From a virus, in the IMG/VR virus record IMGVR_UViG_3300027121_000002, positions 1-64,000 of that record: DNA of 64,000 nucleotides; one strand, 5' to 3'. Each line of letters opens with the position of its first letter. Positions within the stretch are counted from its first letter, which is position 1. Shown piece after piece: positions 3,039 through 63,965 of this stretch. A program made the translations under genes and the position numbers. A model generated the notes under the pieces. That model saw only the letters and a list, made by a program, of their open reading frames with translations, ran no database searches and was not told the origin of the DNA.

Positions 3039-3425
3039 TTCTAATAAAGCAAAATCTTTTTGCTTTGTACCACCATCATAAGTCCAAGCATATCCTTCAT
3101 CAATCATACGATCATTAAGACATACATCATCAACATATAACCTTCCAAGAATTCTCCCATACTTTTCAGTTGAGTCAGGAAGTTCTGTTTTAATAAGAAT
3201 ATTTTTTTTACCATCTAGTTTTTTCTTTAACCATTCCTTAACTTCTAATCCAAGTGTTTTTTCTTTGAGATCGGTTGTACGACTTTCTGGAGTATCAACA
3301 CCACTAAGGCGTACTCGCTTAGTAAGAGAAATATCGAACCCAAGATCAATGTCCGCATCGATTGTGTCACCATCTACTACTCTCAATACTTGTTTTACTC
3401 TGTAGATATATGGGTCTTTATCCAT
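3015..3425 (-). CDS. Staphylococcal-nuclease-like (thermonuclease) protein
   Basis: 136 aa SNase fold. VDGDTIDADIDLG carries the calcium-binding aspartates, RVRLSGVDTPESR gives the catalytic Arg and Glu, and EKYGRILGRLYV the second catalytic Arg. There is no signal peptide, so it would act inside the cell, perhaps in host DNA breakdown or nucleotide recycling (inferred). Start overlaps the previous stop (TAATG). Small SNase-like proteins are common in cyanophages. Confidence 0.85.
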   Translation of the reverse strand: MDKDPYIYRVKQVLRVVDGDTIDADIDLGFDISLTKRVRLSGVDTPESRTTDLKEKTLGLEVKEWLKKKLDGKKNILIKTELPDSTEKYGRILGRLYVDDVCLNDRMIDEGYAWTYDGGTKQKDFALLESKRKSSC

Positions 3426-8499: not shown

Positions 8500-8528
8500 A
8501 TTATATAGGAAAAAGAATGGGGTGTCAA
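8500..8528 (-). promoter_or_regulatory. Consensus sigma70-type early promoter of the hli operon
   Basis: Minus strand TTGACA (8523-8528), 17-base spacer, TATAAT (8500-8505), a perfect match to the bacterial housekeeping consensus, 28 bases before ATG 8472. Confidence 0.92.
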
Positions 8529-8533
8529 GCACA

Positions 8534-9235
8534 TCATTCTTTTTTTTCAATCCTATAAGCCCTTCCGTGTTCGTCAAATCCATCAATCTCAATATATTCT
8601 GTATCTTTGTTGATATCATCATTTGGAACTAAACAAAGATAAGGACCATGAATTCTATCATTATTACTATAATTTCTAAACCCAGAAAGATGATAGTGTG
8701 CAGAAACAATTTGCTTACCTGGATTTTTTAATTTATATCCTTGTTCTGCCATTAATTTAGCAATCTTATTATCACATCCTGGTATTCCTAAAGTGAATTC
8801 AAATTCTTTGGATGTTACAATTGGAGATTTGAAAACCCAAACATCTTGAGATGATGCATTATCAAATGGTGCAATACACCATTCACCATTTTCACAAAAT
8901 ACTTCCCATCTAGTTAAGGCAAGAAAAACTTTATCTAAATCAGTATCCTTTACAACTGAAATAGTATCATCCAAGATAATATCTGCATTTGCAATTATAC
9001 AAATTTCATCTTTTAAATTCTGGTTACAAAATTCAAAAAGATCATTGTATGTTGGTCTTTTTTCCCTTTGAATTACTTCTATTTTATCCGACTTAAAGTT
9101 CAATTTAGAATCATCAGAAATAAAAACATATATCTTTTTAATATTTTCATTTTCTAAATTTTCATGAATACAAGTAAGATATTCACTATGTCTCTGATAA
9201 TCAGGAGATCTAAAATATTCTATCAATAAATTCAT
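8534..9235 (-). CDS. Putative glycosyltransferase-like protein, 233 aa
   Basis: An N-terminal nucleotide-sugar-binding-like half contains CIIANADIILDDTI, a D-x-D-like acidic motif after a beta strand, as in GT-A folds. The second half has SQDVWVFKSP and GIPGCDNKIAKLMAEQGY and then a conserved-looking HYHLSGFRNYS. The ATG overlaps the stop of the epimerase gene (ATGA). Last gene of the glycan cluster. GT family not assigned. Confidence 0.6.
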   Translation of the reverse strand: MNLLIEYFRSPDYQRHSEYLTCIHENLENENIKKIYVFISDDSKLNFKSDKIEVIQREKRPTYNDLFEFCNQNLKDEICIIANADIILDDTISVVKDTDLDKVFLALTRWEVFCENGEWCIAPFDNASSQDVWVFKSPIVTSKEFEFTLGIPGCDNKIAKLMAEQGYKLKNPGKQIVSAHYHLSGFRNYSNNDRIHGPYLCLVPNDDINKDTEYIEIDGFDEHGRAYRIEKKE

Positions 9236-10125
9236 TGAGTTTTAATCCAATCCATTAAATTAACTTGAGGTCTCCATCCAAAAATGGTTCTCAATTTTCC
9301 ATTATTCGCAAGAGTAGTTCGTGACTCACCAATTCTTGCTGGAATATTTATTTGATTTTCTGAAATAGCATCCGCAATTTCATTGATCGAATAATTAACT
9401 CCATTACCTACATTGTAAAGTTCTCCATAAAAATCATCATCAATATCTTTTGTTGCTGCAAGAATATTTGCTTGAACTACATCAGATACGTGTGTGAAGT
9501 CTCTACGTTGTTCACCATCACCAACAATTGTAAGTGACTCTCCTTTTTTCTTCTGCTCCAAGAATAACCCAATTACTGGGGCATATTGTCCTTTTAAAGG
9601 TTGCCGTTCACCATAAACATTAAAATACCTAAAGGAAATTGTCTTAAGATCAAATAAGTCATTGTACATTTTGCAGAGTTTTTCTCCAGCAACTTTAGAT
9701 ACCGAATATGGATTTAAACAATTATCTTTTTGATTTTCGTGATTTGGAGGTTCATTAAATCCATAACCAGAAGATGTAGAAGAATAAATTACTTTCTTAA
9801 CTCCTGCTTCTCTGGCACATTGAAGAACCGTAACAGTACCCATGCAATTGGTATTAACTGCTTTAATTGGATTCAAAATTGCTAGTTGAATCCTAGCATC
9901 AGCAGCAAGATGAAAGACATAATCAACTCCCTCATAAAGAGGTCTAGTTTTTTCATAATCACAAATATCATACTTATAATTTTGAGATTTGTCATTCCAA
10001 TAAAATTCTTCATTGGATTCTGCACTTTCATTATCAATCACAACTACCTCATGACCTAACTCAATAAGTGCATCAACAAGATTTGAACCAATAAATCCTG
10101 CTCCACCAGTGACTAAACTTTTCAT
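9232..10125 (-). CDS. NAD-dependent sugar epimerase/dehydratase (extended SDR)
   Basis: 297 aa. The Rossmann motif TGGAGFIGSNLVDAL is at the N-terminus, YSSTSSGYG includes the Ser, and NPYSVSKVAGEKL the Tyr-x-x-x-Lys active site. Similar to UDP-glucose 4-epimerase and UDP-glucuronate epimerase/decarboxylase groups; substrate not resolvable by eye. It provides a nucleotide sugar for the cluster. Confidence 0.88.
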   Translation of the reverse strand: MKSLVTGGAGFIGSNLVDALIELGHEVVVIDNESAESNEEFYWNDKSQNYKYDICDYEKTRPLYEGVDYVFHLAADARIQLAILNPIKAVNTNCMGTVTVLQCAREAGVKKVIYSSTSSGYGFNEPPNHENQKDNCLNPYSVSKVAGEKLCKMYNDLFDLKTISFRYFNVYGERQPLKGQYAPVIGLFLEQKKKGESLTIVGDGEQRRDFTHVSDVVQANILAATKDIDDDFYGELYNVGNGVNYSINEIADAISENQINIPARIGESRTTLANNGKLRTIFGWRPQVNLMDWIKTQ

Positions 10126-27911: not shown

Positions 27912-28109
27912 TTATTCAAAATCTACAAAATAACCACTGATATATTCCAAAGATAATACTTCAAGATTTTCTTTTTGAATTACCCAATCACGAATTTCAC
28001 TATAAACACTTTCGGCATCTTTAATTCTTTTTTCATCACATAAAGAATGCATACGGTCAATATGATTATTAATCACATCATTGCACATTTTCTTGACGTG
28101 AAGTTTCAT
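27912..28109 (-). CDS. Hypothetical protein, 65 aa
   Basis: MKLHVKKMCNDVINNHIDRM then ESVYSEIRDWVIQKENLE; all-helical, charged. Good Shine-Dalgarno GGAAGGA before ATG 28109. No family recognised. The 148 bases upstream (28110-28257) hold only a CAACATA/TATGTTG stem-loop and the late promoter of the next gene. Confidence 0.6.
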   Translation of the reverse strand: MKLHVKKMCNDVINNHIDRMHSLCDEKRIKDAESVYSEIRDWVIQKENLEVLSLEYISGYFVDFE

Positions 28110-28225
28110 TGAAGTAATCCTTCCTAAAGTATCTTGAAAGTATGTTTATATCCTATCACACGTTCAAAATTTTAGCAACATACCCCTTATGTTGTTCTAT
28201 GTTACAAAAGACCAAAAGTATTTTC

Positions 28226-28233
28226 TATAAATA
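28226..28233 (+). promoter_or_regulatory. Late promoter TATAAATA
   Basis: Exact box on the plus strand, 24 bases before ATG 28258. Confidence 0.75.
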
Positions 28234-28257
28234 ATTTTAACGGAAGAAAGTATTTTT

Positions 28258-29115
28258 ATGGAATGGAAATATAACGAAGAAGATTTAATTGAAATCCCAA
28301 AAGAAATGGAAGGGTTTGTATATTTAATTACTAATCTCACGAATAATAAAAAGTATGTTGGTAAGAAACATTTTTGGACTCGTCAAAAAGATAGAAAAAC
28401 TGGAAGAAGAAAAAAGAAAGAAAGTGATTGGAGACATTATTATGGCTCTTGTGATGGATTAAAGGAAGATATTAATTTAATTGGAAAAGAAAATTTCTTG
28501 AGAGAAATACTTTATCTATGTCCTCACAAAAAATCTATGTCTTATTTTGAAACTTATGAACAATTTAAAAGAAATGTGTTAATGACTGACGAATATTATA
28601 ATACAAATATTGAAGGAAGATTTTTTGTAACCGAAAGAGCAGGGATATATGAAGTAGTATTAAAGAATGATAAATTTAGAGAATTGGCAAAAGATAGAAT
28701 GATTGGAGAAAACAATCCAGCAAAAAGACCAGAAGTTAGAGAAAAATTAAGTGAGATGTTTTCTGGTGAAGGAAATCCTATGTATGGTTCAAAACTTACC
28801 GATGAACATAAAGAAAAATTATTTTCGTCAAGAAAAAAAGCAATAACAGATGGAATTAACACTTGGGATAGTGTAATTTCTTATATGAAAGAAAAAGATA
28901 TTCATTGGAACAAGTATATAGAATTAATTGAAAAAAATAAAATATTTTATGTTGATGGGAATCCTATAAATTTAAAAACAATAAAAAATAAAATAAATCA
29001 TAATTTAAAATTATGGGAATGTTTAATCACTGGATATATTTCTACTGCTTCTGGTCTTTCAATATACCAAAAAAATAGAAATATTGATATTTTACAAAGA
29101 AAAGAGTTTAAATAA
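28258..29115 (+). CDS. GIY-YIG-like homing endonuclease with NUMOD motifs, 285 aa
   Basis: MEGFVYLITNLTNNKKYVGK is a GIY-YIG core (VYLI, YVG), followed by a basic region (KDRKTGRRKKKESDWRHYYG) and catalytic-type Glu in FLREILYLC. NUMOD3-like segments follow (GENNPAKRPEVREKLSEMF, GNPMYGSKLTDEHKEKLFS). One of two plus-strand endonuclease genes; its 3' end meets the truncated minus-strand gene at 29125-29223, which has the related N-terminus GFVYLIE. Confidence 0.82.
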   Translation: MEWKYNEEDLIEIPKEMEGFVYLITNLTNNKKYVGKKHFWTRQKDRKTGRRKKKESDWRHYYGSCDGLKEDINLIGKENFLREILYLCPHKKSMSYFETYEQFKRNVLMTDEYYNTNIEGRFFVTERAGIYEVVLKNDKFRELAKDRMIGENNPAKRPEVREKLSEMFSGEGNPMYGSKLTDEHKEKLFSSRKKAITDGINTWDSVISYMKEKDIHWNKYIELIEKNKIFYVDGNPINLKTIKNKINHNLKLWECLITGYISTASGLSIYQKNRNIDILQRKEFK

Positions 29116-29124
29116 TTTATGATT

Positions 29125-29223
29125 CTAAAAAAATTCTATCAAATAAACAAATCCAAAATTCTCTTGAATATCTTCTGTCTCAAAAACTTTTCCTTGATAT
29201 AACCAAGGGTTTTCATAACTCAT
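29125..29223 (-). pseudogene. Truncated GIY-YIG-type gene, 32 codons
   Basis: Reads MSYENPWLYQGKVFETEDIQ then ENFGFVYLIEFF and stops. The N-terminus matches the start of a GIY-YIG-like cyanophage protein family; the reading frame breaks just after the VYLI strand, so the catalytic part is gone. It keeps a full early promoter and a leader. Probably a remnant cut by the adjacent endonuclease gene or by deletion. Confidence 0.55.
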
Positions 29224-29254
29224 CTGGGTCCCTAATAATATTCAAGTTATTTAT

Positions 29255-29298
29255 AGATATAACTTATCTTCAACCCTAACAGAGTGATTATAGTCATA
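29255..29298 (-). repeat. 44-bp promoter/leader repeat, copy 1
   Basis: Matches 63532-63575 on the opposite strand with one mismatch in 44. Covers the -10 box and the first ~30 transcribed bases. Confidence 0.9.
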
Positions 29299-29315
29299 AA
29301 AAAAGCACCTGTCAA
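29287..29315 (-). promoter_or_regulatory. Consensus sigma70-type promoter inside a terminator
   Basis: Minus strand TTGACA (29310-29315), 17 bases, TATAAT (29287-29292). The -35 lies in the loop of the terminator 29299-29323 and the T tract forms part of the spacer. Confidence 0.85.
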
Positions 29316-29323
29316 GAGGTGCT
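29299..29323 (-). terminator. Terminator of the 542-aa protein gene
   Basis: Minus-strand AGCACC-8-base loop-GGTGCT followed by seven T/A-rich bases. Shares its bases with the downstream early promoter. Confidence 0.85.
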
Positions 29324-29346
29324 TGGTGTATTATAATAAAAGTGTT

Positions 29347-62991: not shown

Positions 62992-63473
62992 TGATATTGT
63001 TTCATTTGAATGTTTTCTTTAATTGTATTGTAGTCAGAAGAACTAAAGGCATCACCATCAACAGAAAAGACCTGATCGAAACCACTTTTTTCGAGAATCT
63101 TTTCTTTGATTTCCATCTGTCTTTTTTCCTTCTGAATACGACGCAAGAAAGCATAATAAACGATTTGCGTAAAATAAGCAAAGGGATTTGTGCGTTCTAC
63201 ATCAAAGTTATTAATATATTGAACACAATTTTCAACACCATCAGAAATCATATCTTCACGAAACATATAATTTACAAAGTTTGGACGATATGATAAATGT
63301 GTAGCAATTTTCAAAAAACAATCACCGAGATAATTTGGAATCACTGGATTGGGAAGACCCTTTTCTTTTGCAGAATTTACTTTAATTTTATAATTTATCA
63401 GTGCATCGTGAAAATCTTTATTATTTACATAATGTGGATTTTTCTTTACTTTATTCATTTTTGAAATTGGCAT
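62988..63473 (-). CDS. gp55: Late-transcription sigma factor (T4 gp55-like)
   Basis: 161 aa. NYMFREDMISDGVENCVQYI then NNFDVERTNPFAYFTQIVYY and AFLRRIQKEKRQMEIKEKIL is the sigma region 2 of gp55-type factors. It should direct host RNA polymerase to the TATAAATA boxes seen across the window, together with gp45. Preceded by an early promoter. Confidence 0.94.
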   Translation of the reverse strand: MPISKMNKVKKNPHYVNNKDFHDALINYKIKVNSAKEKGLPNPVIPNYLGDCFLKIATHLSYRPNFVNYMFREDMISDGVENCVQYINNFDVERTNPFAYFTQIVYYAFLRRIQKEKRQMEIKEKILEKSGFDQVFSVDGDAFSSSDYNTIKENIQMKQYQ

Positions 63474-63491
63474 AACTGATTACTTTTCCTT

Positions 63492-63521
63492 ATTATAACA
63501 CACAATAGCAATAGTTGACAA
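63492..63521 (-). promoter_or_regulatory. Sigma70-type promoter of the gp55-gp47-gp46 operon
   Basis: Minus strand TATAAT (63492-63497) 18 bases after TTGTCA (63516-63521), 19 bases before ATG 63473. Shares its -35 bases with the plus-strand promoter 63515-63543. Confidence 0.75.
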
Positions 63522-63543
63522 CTATAAACAATATGACTATAAT
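63515..63543 (+). promoter_or_regulatory. Consensus sigma70-type promoter pointing against the Sm-like gene
   Basis: Plus strand TTGACA (63515-63520), 17 bases, TATAAT (63538-63543). No plus-strand gene follows; transcription would run antisense into 63576-63965. Confidence 0.8.
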
Positions 63544-63575
63544 CACTCTGTTAGGGTTGAAGATAAATTATATCT
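63532..63575 (+). repeat. 44-bp promoter/leader repeat, copy 2
   Basis: One mismatch in 44 to the complement of 29255-29298; includes the -10 box and the leader start. Confidence 0.9.
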
Positions 63576-63965
63576 TTAATTGGATTTATAAATCTTCTCT
63601 AAGGATTTTCTGGCATCAGATATAGAAGATAAGTATCCCATTTTAGAAGTAAGTTCACTTTTATTGGACTTTTTATTTTTCTCTCTAACAAATTTTTGAT
63701 GTATTTTAATTAAATCTTCATCAGTTATTTCTGTCATTGTTATTACTTTTTCCATATCCATCACAAACATACTGTCATCGGCAAACTTTATCCACGGACT
63801 TACTTTGATAGTTGATATTCCAAGTTTACGGATTGTTATGGATTCCATAGTGATAGGATTATCTAAAATTAATATAATCCTATTTTCTTCATCACAAGGA
63901 CAAACTTTAGAAAGTATTTCCTCACCTGATATTAATTTAATGATAGCATAAAAATCTTCTTCCAT
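63576..63965 (-). CDS. Sm-like-fold protein, 129 aa
   Basis: MEEDFYAIIKLISGEEILSK then DNPITMESITIRKLGISTIK, VSPWIKFADDSMFVMDMEKV and ITMTEITDEDLIKIHQKF; same strand order and the (Y/S)PW motif as the proteins at 54569-54994 and 54367-54672. Located beside the gp55 gene, as in other cyanophages. Possible RNA-binding regulator; inferred from fold. Confidence 0.7.
   Translation of the reverse strand: MEEDFYAIIKLISGEEILSKVCPCDEENRIILILDNPITMESITIRKLGISTIKVSPWIKFADDSMFVMDMEKVITMTEITDEDLIKIHQKFVREKNKKSNKSELTSKMGYLSSISDARKSLEKIYKSN

Follow-up and report, generated by a model that had tools for sequence, protein, structure and literature searches.

Divergent or overlapping promoters with elements in common form a general class in bacteria, and the locus described here resembles them in that two sigma-70 promoters on opposite strands hold core bases in common, with the prediction that their occupancy should be exclusive; it departs from the general class in that the -35 element is shared, that the pair stands at one and the same locus, upstream of a late sigma gene, in most of the loci compared, and that a conserved block of bases covers one of the two start sites. 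To our knowledge, cyanomyoviruses are without the MotA/AsiA control of middle genes deployed by T4, and the pair together with its recurring block offers a short, well-defined piece of DNA as bait for a missing regulator in common aquatic viruses.

The PeSL cassettes of T4-like phages, which unite promoter and terminator (Arbiol 2010 and Comeau 2014, both as cited in PMC4503421), find a counterpart in a second copy of the element within the DNA studied, which is a perfect early-type promoter with its -35 in a terminator stem-loop, but the copy at gp55 has no stem-loop terminator, and a start-site block forms no part of the PeSL accounts in the available portion of PMC4503421. An antisense RNA, CfrI, at psbA of cyanophage S-PM2, and pairs of sigma-70 and gp55 motifs upstream of cyanophage psbA, are both reported in the accessible part of PMC5931967; as with CfrI, a phage promoter here lies antisense to a phage gene, although no conserved antisense body was found at the gp55 locus. 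According to the available part of Sullivan 2010 (PMC3037559), BPROM promoter predictions were kept there if intergenic or no more than 10 bp from the end of an ORF. Neither the pair nor the block is described in the accessible portions of PMC5931967, PMC5082946, PMC3037559, PMC4503421 or PMC9964418. No title or abstract describing the block was found in the literature, which is weak evidence, most subscription papers lying outside the scope of the search. The transcriptome of phage Syn9 by Doron (2016) is reportedly the likeliest source of start-site data.

The promoter pair upstream of gp55

The window, that is the whole stretch of DNA analysed, comprised 64,000 of the 66,119 bases of IMG/VR virus record IMGVR_UViG_3300027121_000002, and displayed on its minus strand the gene order of a T4-like cyanophage, namely uvsW, an Sm-like gene, gp55, gp47, a small gene and gp46, as judged by comparison with P-SSM2, S-SM2, P-TIM68 and others, the name uvsW being assigned by synteny. 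The identity of gp55 as a late sigma factor, assumed in the preliminary description, was upheld both by its PHROG match (Table 1) and by synteny with the annotated gp55 genes of P-SSM2, S-SM2, S-PM2 and others. The Sm-like gene lies upstream of gp55 in the same direction, and between its stop at 63576 and the gp55 start at 63473 stands the heptamer TTGACAA (63515-63521), which serves promoters on both strands. At Rfam gathering thresholds, the sole match in the whole window was a PhotoRC-II RNA motif at 385-479 on the minus strand, and no tRNA genes were found across the window, so that the promoter element is not a catalogued RNA.

Read on the plus strand, the heptamer opens a 12/12 sigma-70 promoter with an N17 spacer (63515-63543), hereafter the opposing promoter, which was the top-scoring of 30 promoter-like sites between 60 and 64 kb; read on the minus strand, it opens a gp55-directed 11/12 promoter with an N18 spacer (63521-63492) and TG ahead of its -10, the two -35 hexamers overlapping by five bases. 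An exact pair of this kind occurred once in the 64 kb window and in none of 60 first-order Markov shuffles, and 12/12 promoters numbered three in the window (63515 +, 29315 - and 8528 -) against a shuffle mean of 0.10 and a maximum of one. These figures bear out the preliminary description, which had reported two divergent early promoters upstream of gp55 that draw on the same -35 bases, with TATAAT 17 and 18 bases away.

Table 1. Coordinates of the promoter elements, block copies and associated genes in the window.
Feature	Position	Strand	Evidence or remark
gp55, late-transcription sigma factor, 161 aa	62988..63473	-	PHROG 234 'late sigma transcription factor', E 3.4e-63
-10 TATAAT of gp55-directed promoter, TGT before it (extended -10)	63492..63497	-	5/6 or better, spacing 16-18, in 73/86 loci
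-35 TTGACA of opposing promoter, bases shared	63515..63520	+	TTGACA in 85/86 loci
-35 TTGTCA of gp55-directed promoter, bases shared	63516..63521	-	TTGTCA in 81/86 loci
-10 TATAAT of opposing promoter	63538..63543	+	T1, A2 and T6 kept in 85/86 loci
Conserved start-site block CACTCTGTTAGGGTTGAAG	63544..63562	+	Matrix and column information; second copy at 29286-29268; recurs in phages and host islands
Sm-like ('methylamine utilization') gene	63576..63965	-	Pfam Sm_like 1.3e-08; PHROG 471 2.1e-37
SegE/GIY-YIG (PHROG 447) gene behind second copy, 5' part	29125..29223	-	First 32 codons
Late box of gp55 type, TATAAATA, shortly after second copy	29248..29255	-	
Second block copy CACTCTGTTAGGGTTGAAG	29268..29286	-	Identical
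Second promoter copy, 12/12	29287..29315	-	TTGACA 29315-29310, N17, TATAAT 29292-29287

Transcription from the gp55-directed promoter is predicted to start near 63485, which, provided that the gp55 start has been annotated correctly, leaves roughly 12 nt of leader, and that from the opposing promoter near 63550 (G63550), from where it would enter the Sm-like gene at its 3' end. Since it leads there, the opposing transcript would be antisense to the Sm-like gene and to uvsW and not to gp55, and in this respect the earlier suggestion of antisense transcription against the late sigma gene is not supported in the form in which it was put. The other part of that suggestion, competition between the two promoters at gp55, is plausible, because to judge by the size of the polymerase footprint two RNA polymerases could not fit together on the pair, which would make occupancy of both promoters at once impossible, and the arrangement is widely conserved. 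Only one plus-strand ORF of at least 40 aa lies behind the opposing promoter in the window, a 48-aa reading frame that begins with TTG and lies within the Sm-like gene.

Conservation was assessed over 89 loci consisting of 80 gp55 loci from IMG/VR (the 80 best matches among at least 600), eight isolates and the window, of which 86 were usable once three incomplete loci (L104, L145 and L170) had been dropped. The opposing promoter was kept in 85 of the 86 and the divergent pair in 73, against means of 0.38 and 0 respectively in 100 rounds of shuffled loci, while the seventh base A, which makes the TTGTCA of the gp55 side, was kept in 81. The best promoter within about 110 nt was chosen at each locus, a procedure that inflates the TTGACA counts, and it was exact TTGACA counted likewise in the shuffles that gave 0.38 of 86. 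Reduction of the 85, which do not include contig L135, at 80% identity left 43 non-redundant loci, 34 of them with the pair. Conservation of the pair is not due to chance.

In 13 of the 86 loci, those of Syn33 and P-SSM4 included, the gp55 side had no good promoter with normal spacing, and contig L135 and S-CRM01 were without the element. P-HM2 and S-T4, which gave no convincing pattern match and were inspected directly, kept the opposing promoter with a strongly altered block, and the blocks of P-SSM4 and S-SRM01 were poor. Upstream of gp55 in P-HM2 (L315), a GC-rich hairpin, CCCTGCTGTCAAGCGGGG, was located in the gp55-side spacer, where it adjoins the shared -35, and a terminator-promoter composite may therefore exist at gp55 in that phage.

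The start-site block and its recurrence in phage genomes

A block of about 17 nt, which the preliminary description did not mention, any more than its other genomic copies or its occurrence in host islands, lies over the predicted start site of the opposing promoter and, measured from the predicted gp55 start, some 66 bp upstream. It resembles an imperfect dyad of the type AACTC-TGTTA-GGGTT, the TG at its centre coinciding with the expected start site. Over the 43 non-redundant loci, its columns mostly carried about 1 bit (range 0.19-2.10), and 16 of the 17 columns directly upstream of the -10 carried no more than 0.60 bit, the column adjoining the -10 reaching 1.10; the columns were anchored on the -35 and -10 as found, so that the information of those two hexamers is inflated. 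An IMG/VR scan with 17 block bases, a pattern that required neither a -35 nor a -10, returned 98 stretches, all of which had a TTGACA-like -35 and a -10 upstream with the exception of L007, L009, L022, L048, L087, L092, L094 and L099. Symmetry of the block, such as the operator of a dimeric regulator would show, is weakly supported, the results being mixed: a register-flexible test of the arms favoured it (1/2000), but co-variation in a fixed register was not significant, 728 of 5000 column shuffles reaching the observed 160/205 pairs. An RNA hairpin at the 5' end of the opposing transcript was considered and dropped in favour of a DNA site, because the predicted +1 would leave the 5' arm untranscribed.

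A search of the gp55 region against its own record yielded a 48-bp, 96% copy at 29251-29298 on the minus strand. A terminator-like hairpin with arms at 29303-29310 and 29317-29324, followed by a T run on the minus strand, holds in its loop five of the six -35 bases of this second promoter. The GIY-YIG (PHROG 447) gene behind it, spanning 28081-29223, is interrupted, its first 29 codons occupying 29223-29137 and its final 22 codons 28146-28081, with the middle replaced by a SegE/NUMOD3 homing endonuclease on the plus strand (28258-29115); the gene is cut at or near the same codon in several relatives and is intact in others. The third 12/12 sigma-70 promoter of the window (8500-8528, minus strand) has its -35 flanked on either side by what looks like one arm of an inverted repeat (AAAGAATG / CATTCTTT) and, judged by eye, is without the start-site block.

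A matrix built on the -10 plus the block, run over the whole sequences of the window, Syn33 and DSL-LC02, identified two, three and two sites respectively at scores of 24.5-29.8, the next matches scoring 11.2-14.9 and three shuffles per genome peaking at 12.1-18.7. The remaining 17 isolates were searched by pattern, matches being kept only with a -35 and then scored by the matrix; over the 20 records, the pattern at up to three mismatches gave 146 matches against 135 in a reverse-read control, and because this hardly exceeds the control, the extra sites rest on hand choice with a -35 plus the matrix. Sites beyond gp55 scoring at least 20 were present in eight of the 20 records (the window, Syn33, DSL-LC02, Syn9, S-H35, S-CAM9, S-PRM1 and S-SKS1) and weaker ones, at 15.4-17.9 and thus below the top shuffle score of 18.7, in S-PM2, S-SM2 and Bellamy, with none in the other nine. 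Some of the extra sites have an imperfect -35 (TTGACC, TTGCCA, TTGACG or TTGCCT). Behind them lie GIY-YIG/'NAD synthetase' (PHROG 447) genes or their neighbours in relatives of the window, S-H35 and S-CAM9, clusters of small genes ahead of a baseplate wedge gene in Syn33, Syn9 and S-H35, and cpeT or its neighbourhood in Syn33 and S-PM2. Like the motif pairs reported at psbA, an early promoter stands near a late-type box (within 60 nt) at five of the 16 block-bearing sites away from gp55, where 0.47 would be expected; unlike them, the opposing side of the gp55 locus carried no such box in any of the 42 non-redundant loci counted.

The relationship between block copies was evaluated with 27 hand-picked sites from 11 genomes with at least two sites each, falling into eight clades, and with the promoter spacer as a control. 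Blocks away from gp55 differed from the gp55 block at 0.158 of positions within genomes and at 0.357 between clades, only one of 5000 clade-level permutations being as low as the value observed, while the corresponding spacer distances were 0.586 and 0.634 (the S-SM2 gp55 spacer was entered one base too long, which affects the spacer control alone). The extra sites of S-SM2 and Bellamy were unlike their gp55 sites (0.553), so that this clade departs from the pattern. Block types included AACACTG in both Syn9 and S-H35, ACCTTTG twice in S-SKS1, and AACCTTG twice plus AACCATG once in Syn33. Because blocks from one genome resemble each other much more closely than blocks from different genomes do, which is not true of the spacers, the data point to recognition of the block by a putative phage-encoded regulator; that such a factor would be encoded by the phage and not by the host is further argued by the WH7803 phages Syn33, S-PM2, S-SKS1 and S-PRM1, which carry at least three block types between them on one host strain.

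Possible roles of the arrangement

We tentatively lean towards a timing switch for gp55, in which the opposing promoter would occlude the gp55 promoter until a phage factor acts at the block. Early in infection, host RNA polymerase would be expected to favour the perfect 12/12 promoter, and a polymerase seated there would bar another from the gp55 promoter; with no gene to express at this locus, opposing transcription may act mainly through occupancy, and might perhaps also disturb transcription that reads on from uvsW and the Sm-like gene. A protein of the phage could later recognise the block and silence the opposing promoter, thereby freeing the gp55 promoter or else activating it from about -66, and the same protein may put the other block-bearing promoters on one schedule. 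A position some 66 bp upstream is a distance used by upstream activators.

A cis-antisense RNA that issues from the opposing promoter and pairs with Sm-like/uvsW mRNA, or with read-through of the gp55 operon, thereby tuning stability, seems an unlikely explanation, even though a perfect antisense promoter with no evident plus-strand gene behind it is kept in 85 of the 86 loci and the available part of PMC5931967 reports that CfrI is expressed at S-PM2 psbA. Synonymous codon identity along the overlapped Sm-like gene was flat, at 0.58, 0.55 and 0.58 by thirds and 0.58 over the final 15 codons, and thus without any rise near the promoter, in 67 sequences made up of the window and 66 of the 80 IMG/VR loci (14 IMG/VR loci and the eight isolates being left out); this profile leaves antisense RNA unsupported as the main function, and its indication of no extra synonymous constraint makes polymerase occlusion the likelier of the two. 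Pairing RNAs, for their part, need no extra synonymous constraint. Also unfavourable to an antisense RNA are the want of any terminator-like site between 60 and 64 kb, and hence of a stem-loop terminator at the gp55 copy, and the fact that elsewhere the same type of promoter precedes sense genes. A rather doubtful alternative takes the element to be a mobile early-promoter cassette of the PeSL type, the gp55 copy being a fixed relic and the block a downstream element for host RNA polymerase. The -35 of the copy at 29287-29315 does lie in a terminator loop, similar composites were seen by eye before the extra site of DSL-LC02 and before a block-less promoter of P-TIM68, and the window's two copies stay alike past the block, which suggests recent copying in its lineage; however, recent copying is no general explanation of the matched blocks, because spacers are hardly more alike within genomes than between them, and the gp55 copy is without a terminator in the window and syntenic in the isolates viewed.

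That the block is instead bound by a host cyanobacterial regulator or polymerase-associated factor, with the phages tapping a host circuit, is distinctly improbable. Exact promoter-plus-block matches do occur in Synechococcus genomes, but at up to three mismatches a match was found in only 14 of the 400 genomes of the family concerned, against 10 in the reverse-read control; in eight of the nine host loci retained, the match lies together with an integrase, a resolvase or a near relative of these enzymes and not at a conserved host gene, and the block differs among phages of a single host strain. It is very improbable that the arrangement has no regulatory meaning at all, in which case a strong, AT-rich early promoter next to gp55 would owe its mirrored -35 to the fact that TTGACAA is nearly palindromic. 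The reversed heptamer already supplies five of six -35 bases, and mirrored promoters arising from sequence symmetry are known in bacteria; yet the seventh base is A in 81 of the 86 loci, the mirrored -10 stands at the right spacing in 73 of them with none in shuffles, and two of the nine host islands, which are related to each other, also have a mirrored promoter, there ahead of a different gene.

Block-bearing promoters in host islands

An exact scan for promoter plus block over a genome collection of 84,980 species returned four matches, two of them in Synechococcus records, the first of which gave no phage match and the second phage matches to tRNA only, among the five listed of ten phage records. 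The other two were set aside, L287 being cyanophage-like DNA in a Lewinella bin and L288 a weak or chance match without a -35. The 400 genomes referred to above belong to the family of the first Synechococcus record, which we take to be Cyanobiaceae, and the 14 with a match held it at 15 places: five perfect (two of them already known), one with one mismatch and three with two. The six places with three mismatches were at the level of the control and were not used, and nine host loci with 0-2 mismatches (L306-L314) were taken.

Tycheposons and phage satellites are mobile elements of picocyanobacteria, and the host loci resemble them as islands with tyrosine integrases (two adjoining tRNA-Ser, in L307 and L311) or serine resolvases. 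A Pfam integrase or resolvase above cut-off was detected in six of the nine (L306, L307, L309, L311, L313 and L314) and close relatives by BLASTP in L308 and L310, a Cys-rich ORF being the sole feature that L312 has in common with the other islands. None of the proteins tested in these candidate satellites, which covered part of each island, matched a structural gene. A restriction-helicase protein is present in L307 and one 75% identical to it in L311. The late box TATAAATA lies within 60 nt behind the block in L313 and L314, that is in two of the eight loci examined (all but L310), where 0.30 would be expected. The mirrored promoter is perfect (TTGTCA-N17-TATAAT) in L306 and L311, where it faces a Cys-rich ORF, and no mirrored -10 was present in the other seven loci.

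We propose that some of these islands may eavesdrop on infecting phages. In its wider form this proposal is possible, if more doubtful than the timing switch: an undescribed early regulator encoded by T4-like cyanophages would recognise the block at between two and four promoters of each genome and set the timing of the late sigma factor by way of the pair, and islands of Synechococcus-type hosts with promoter and block, some with a late box or mirrored promoter, would sense the phage programme and act as satellites or as defence elements that it sets off. If it is true that the islands use the block as an infection sensor, the block would provide a handle on the response of picocyanobacterial mobile elements to phage.

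The Cys-rich ORFs of L306 (8612-8965, minus strand) and L311 (2628-2969, minus strand) encode proteins of 113-117 aa containing ACPFCRD that are 83% identical, and neither had a Pfam match above cut-off. One or two compact hairpins, with z of -2.5 to -3.5, were predicted in leaders of L306 (about 9172-9232), L311 (about 3175-3238), L307 (about 9457-9509) and L308 (minus strand), and these leaders precede small ORFs (about 60 aa), those of L306, L308 and L311 being relatives of one another.
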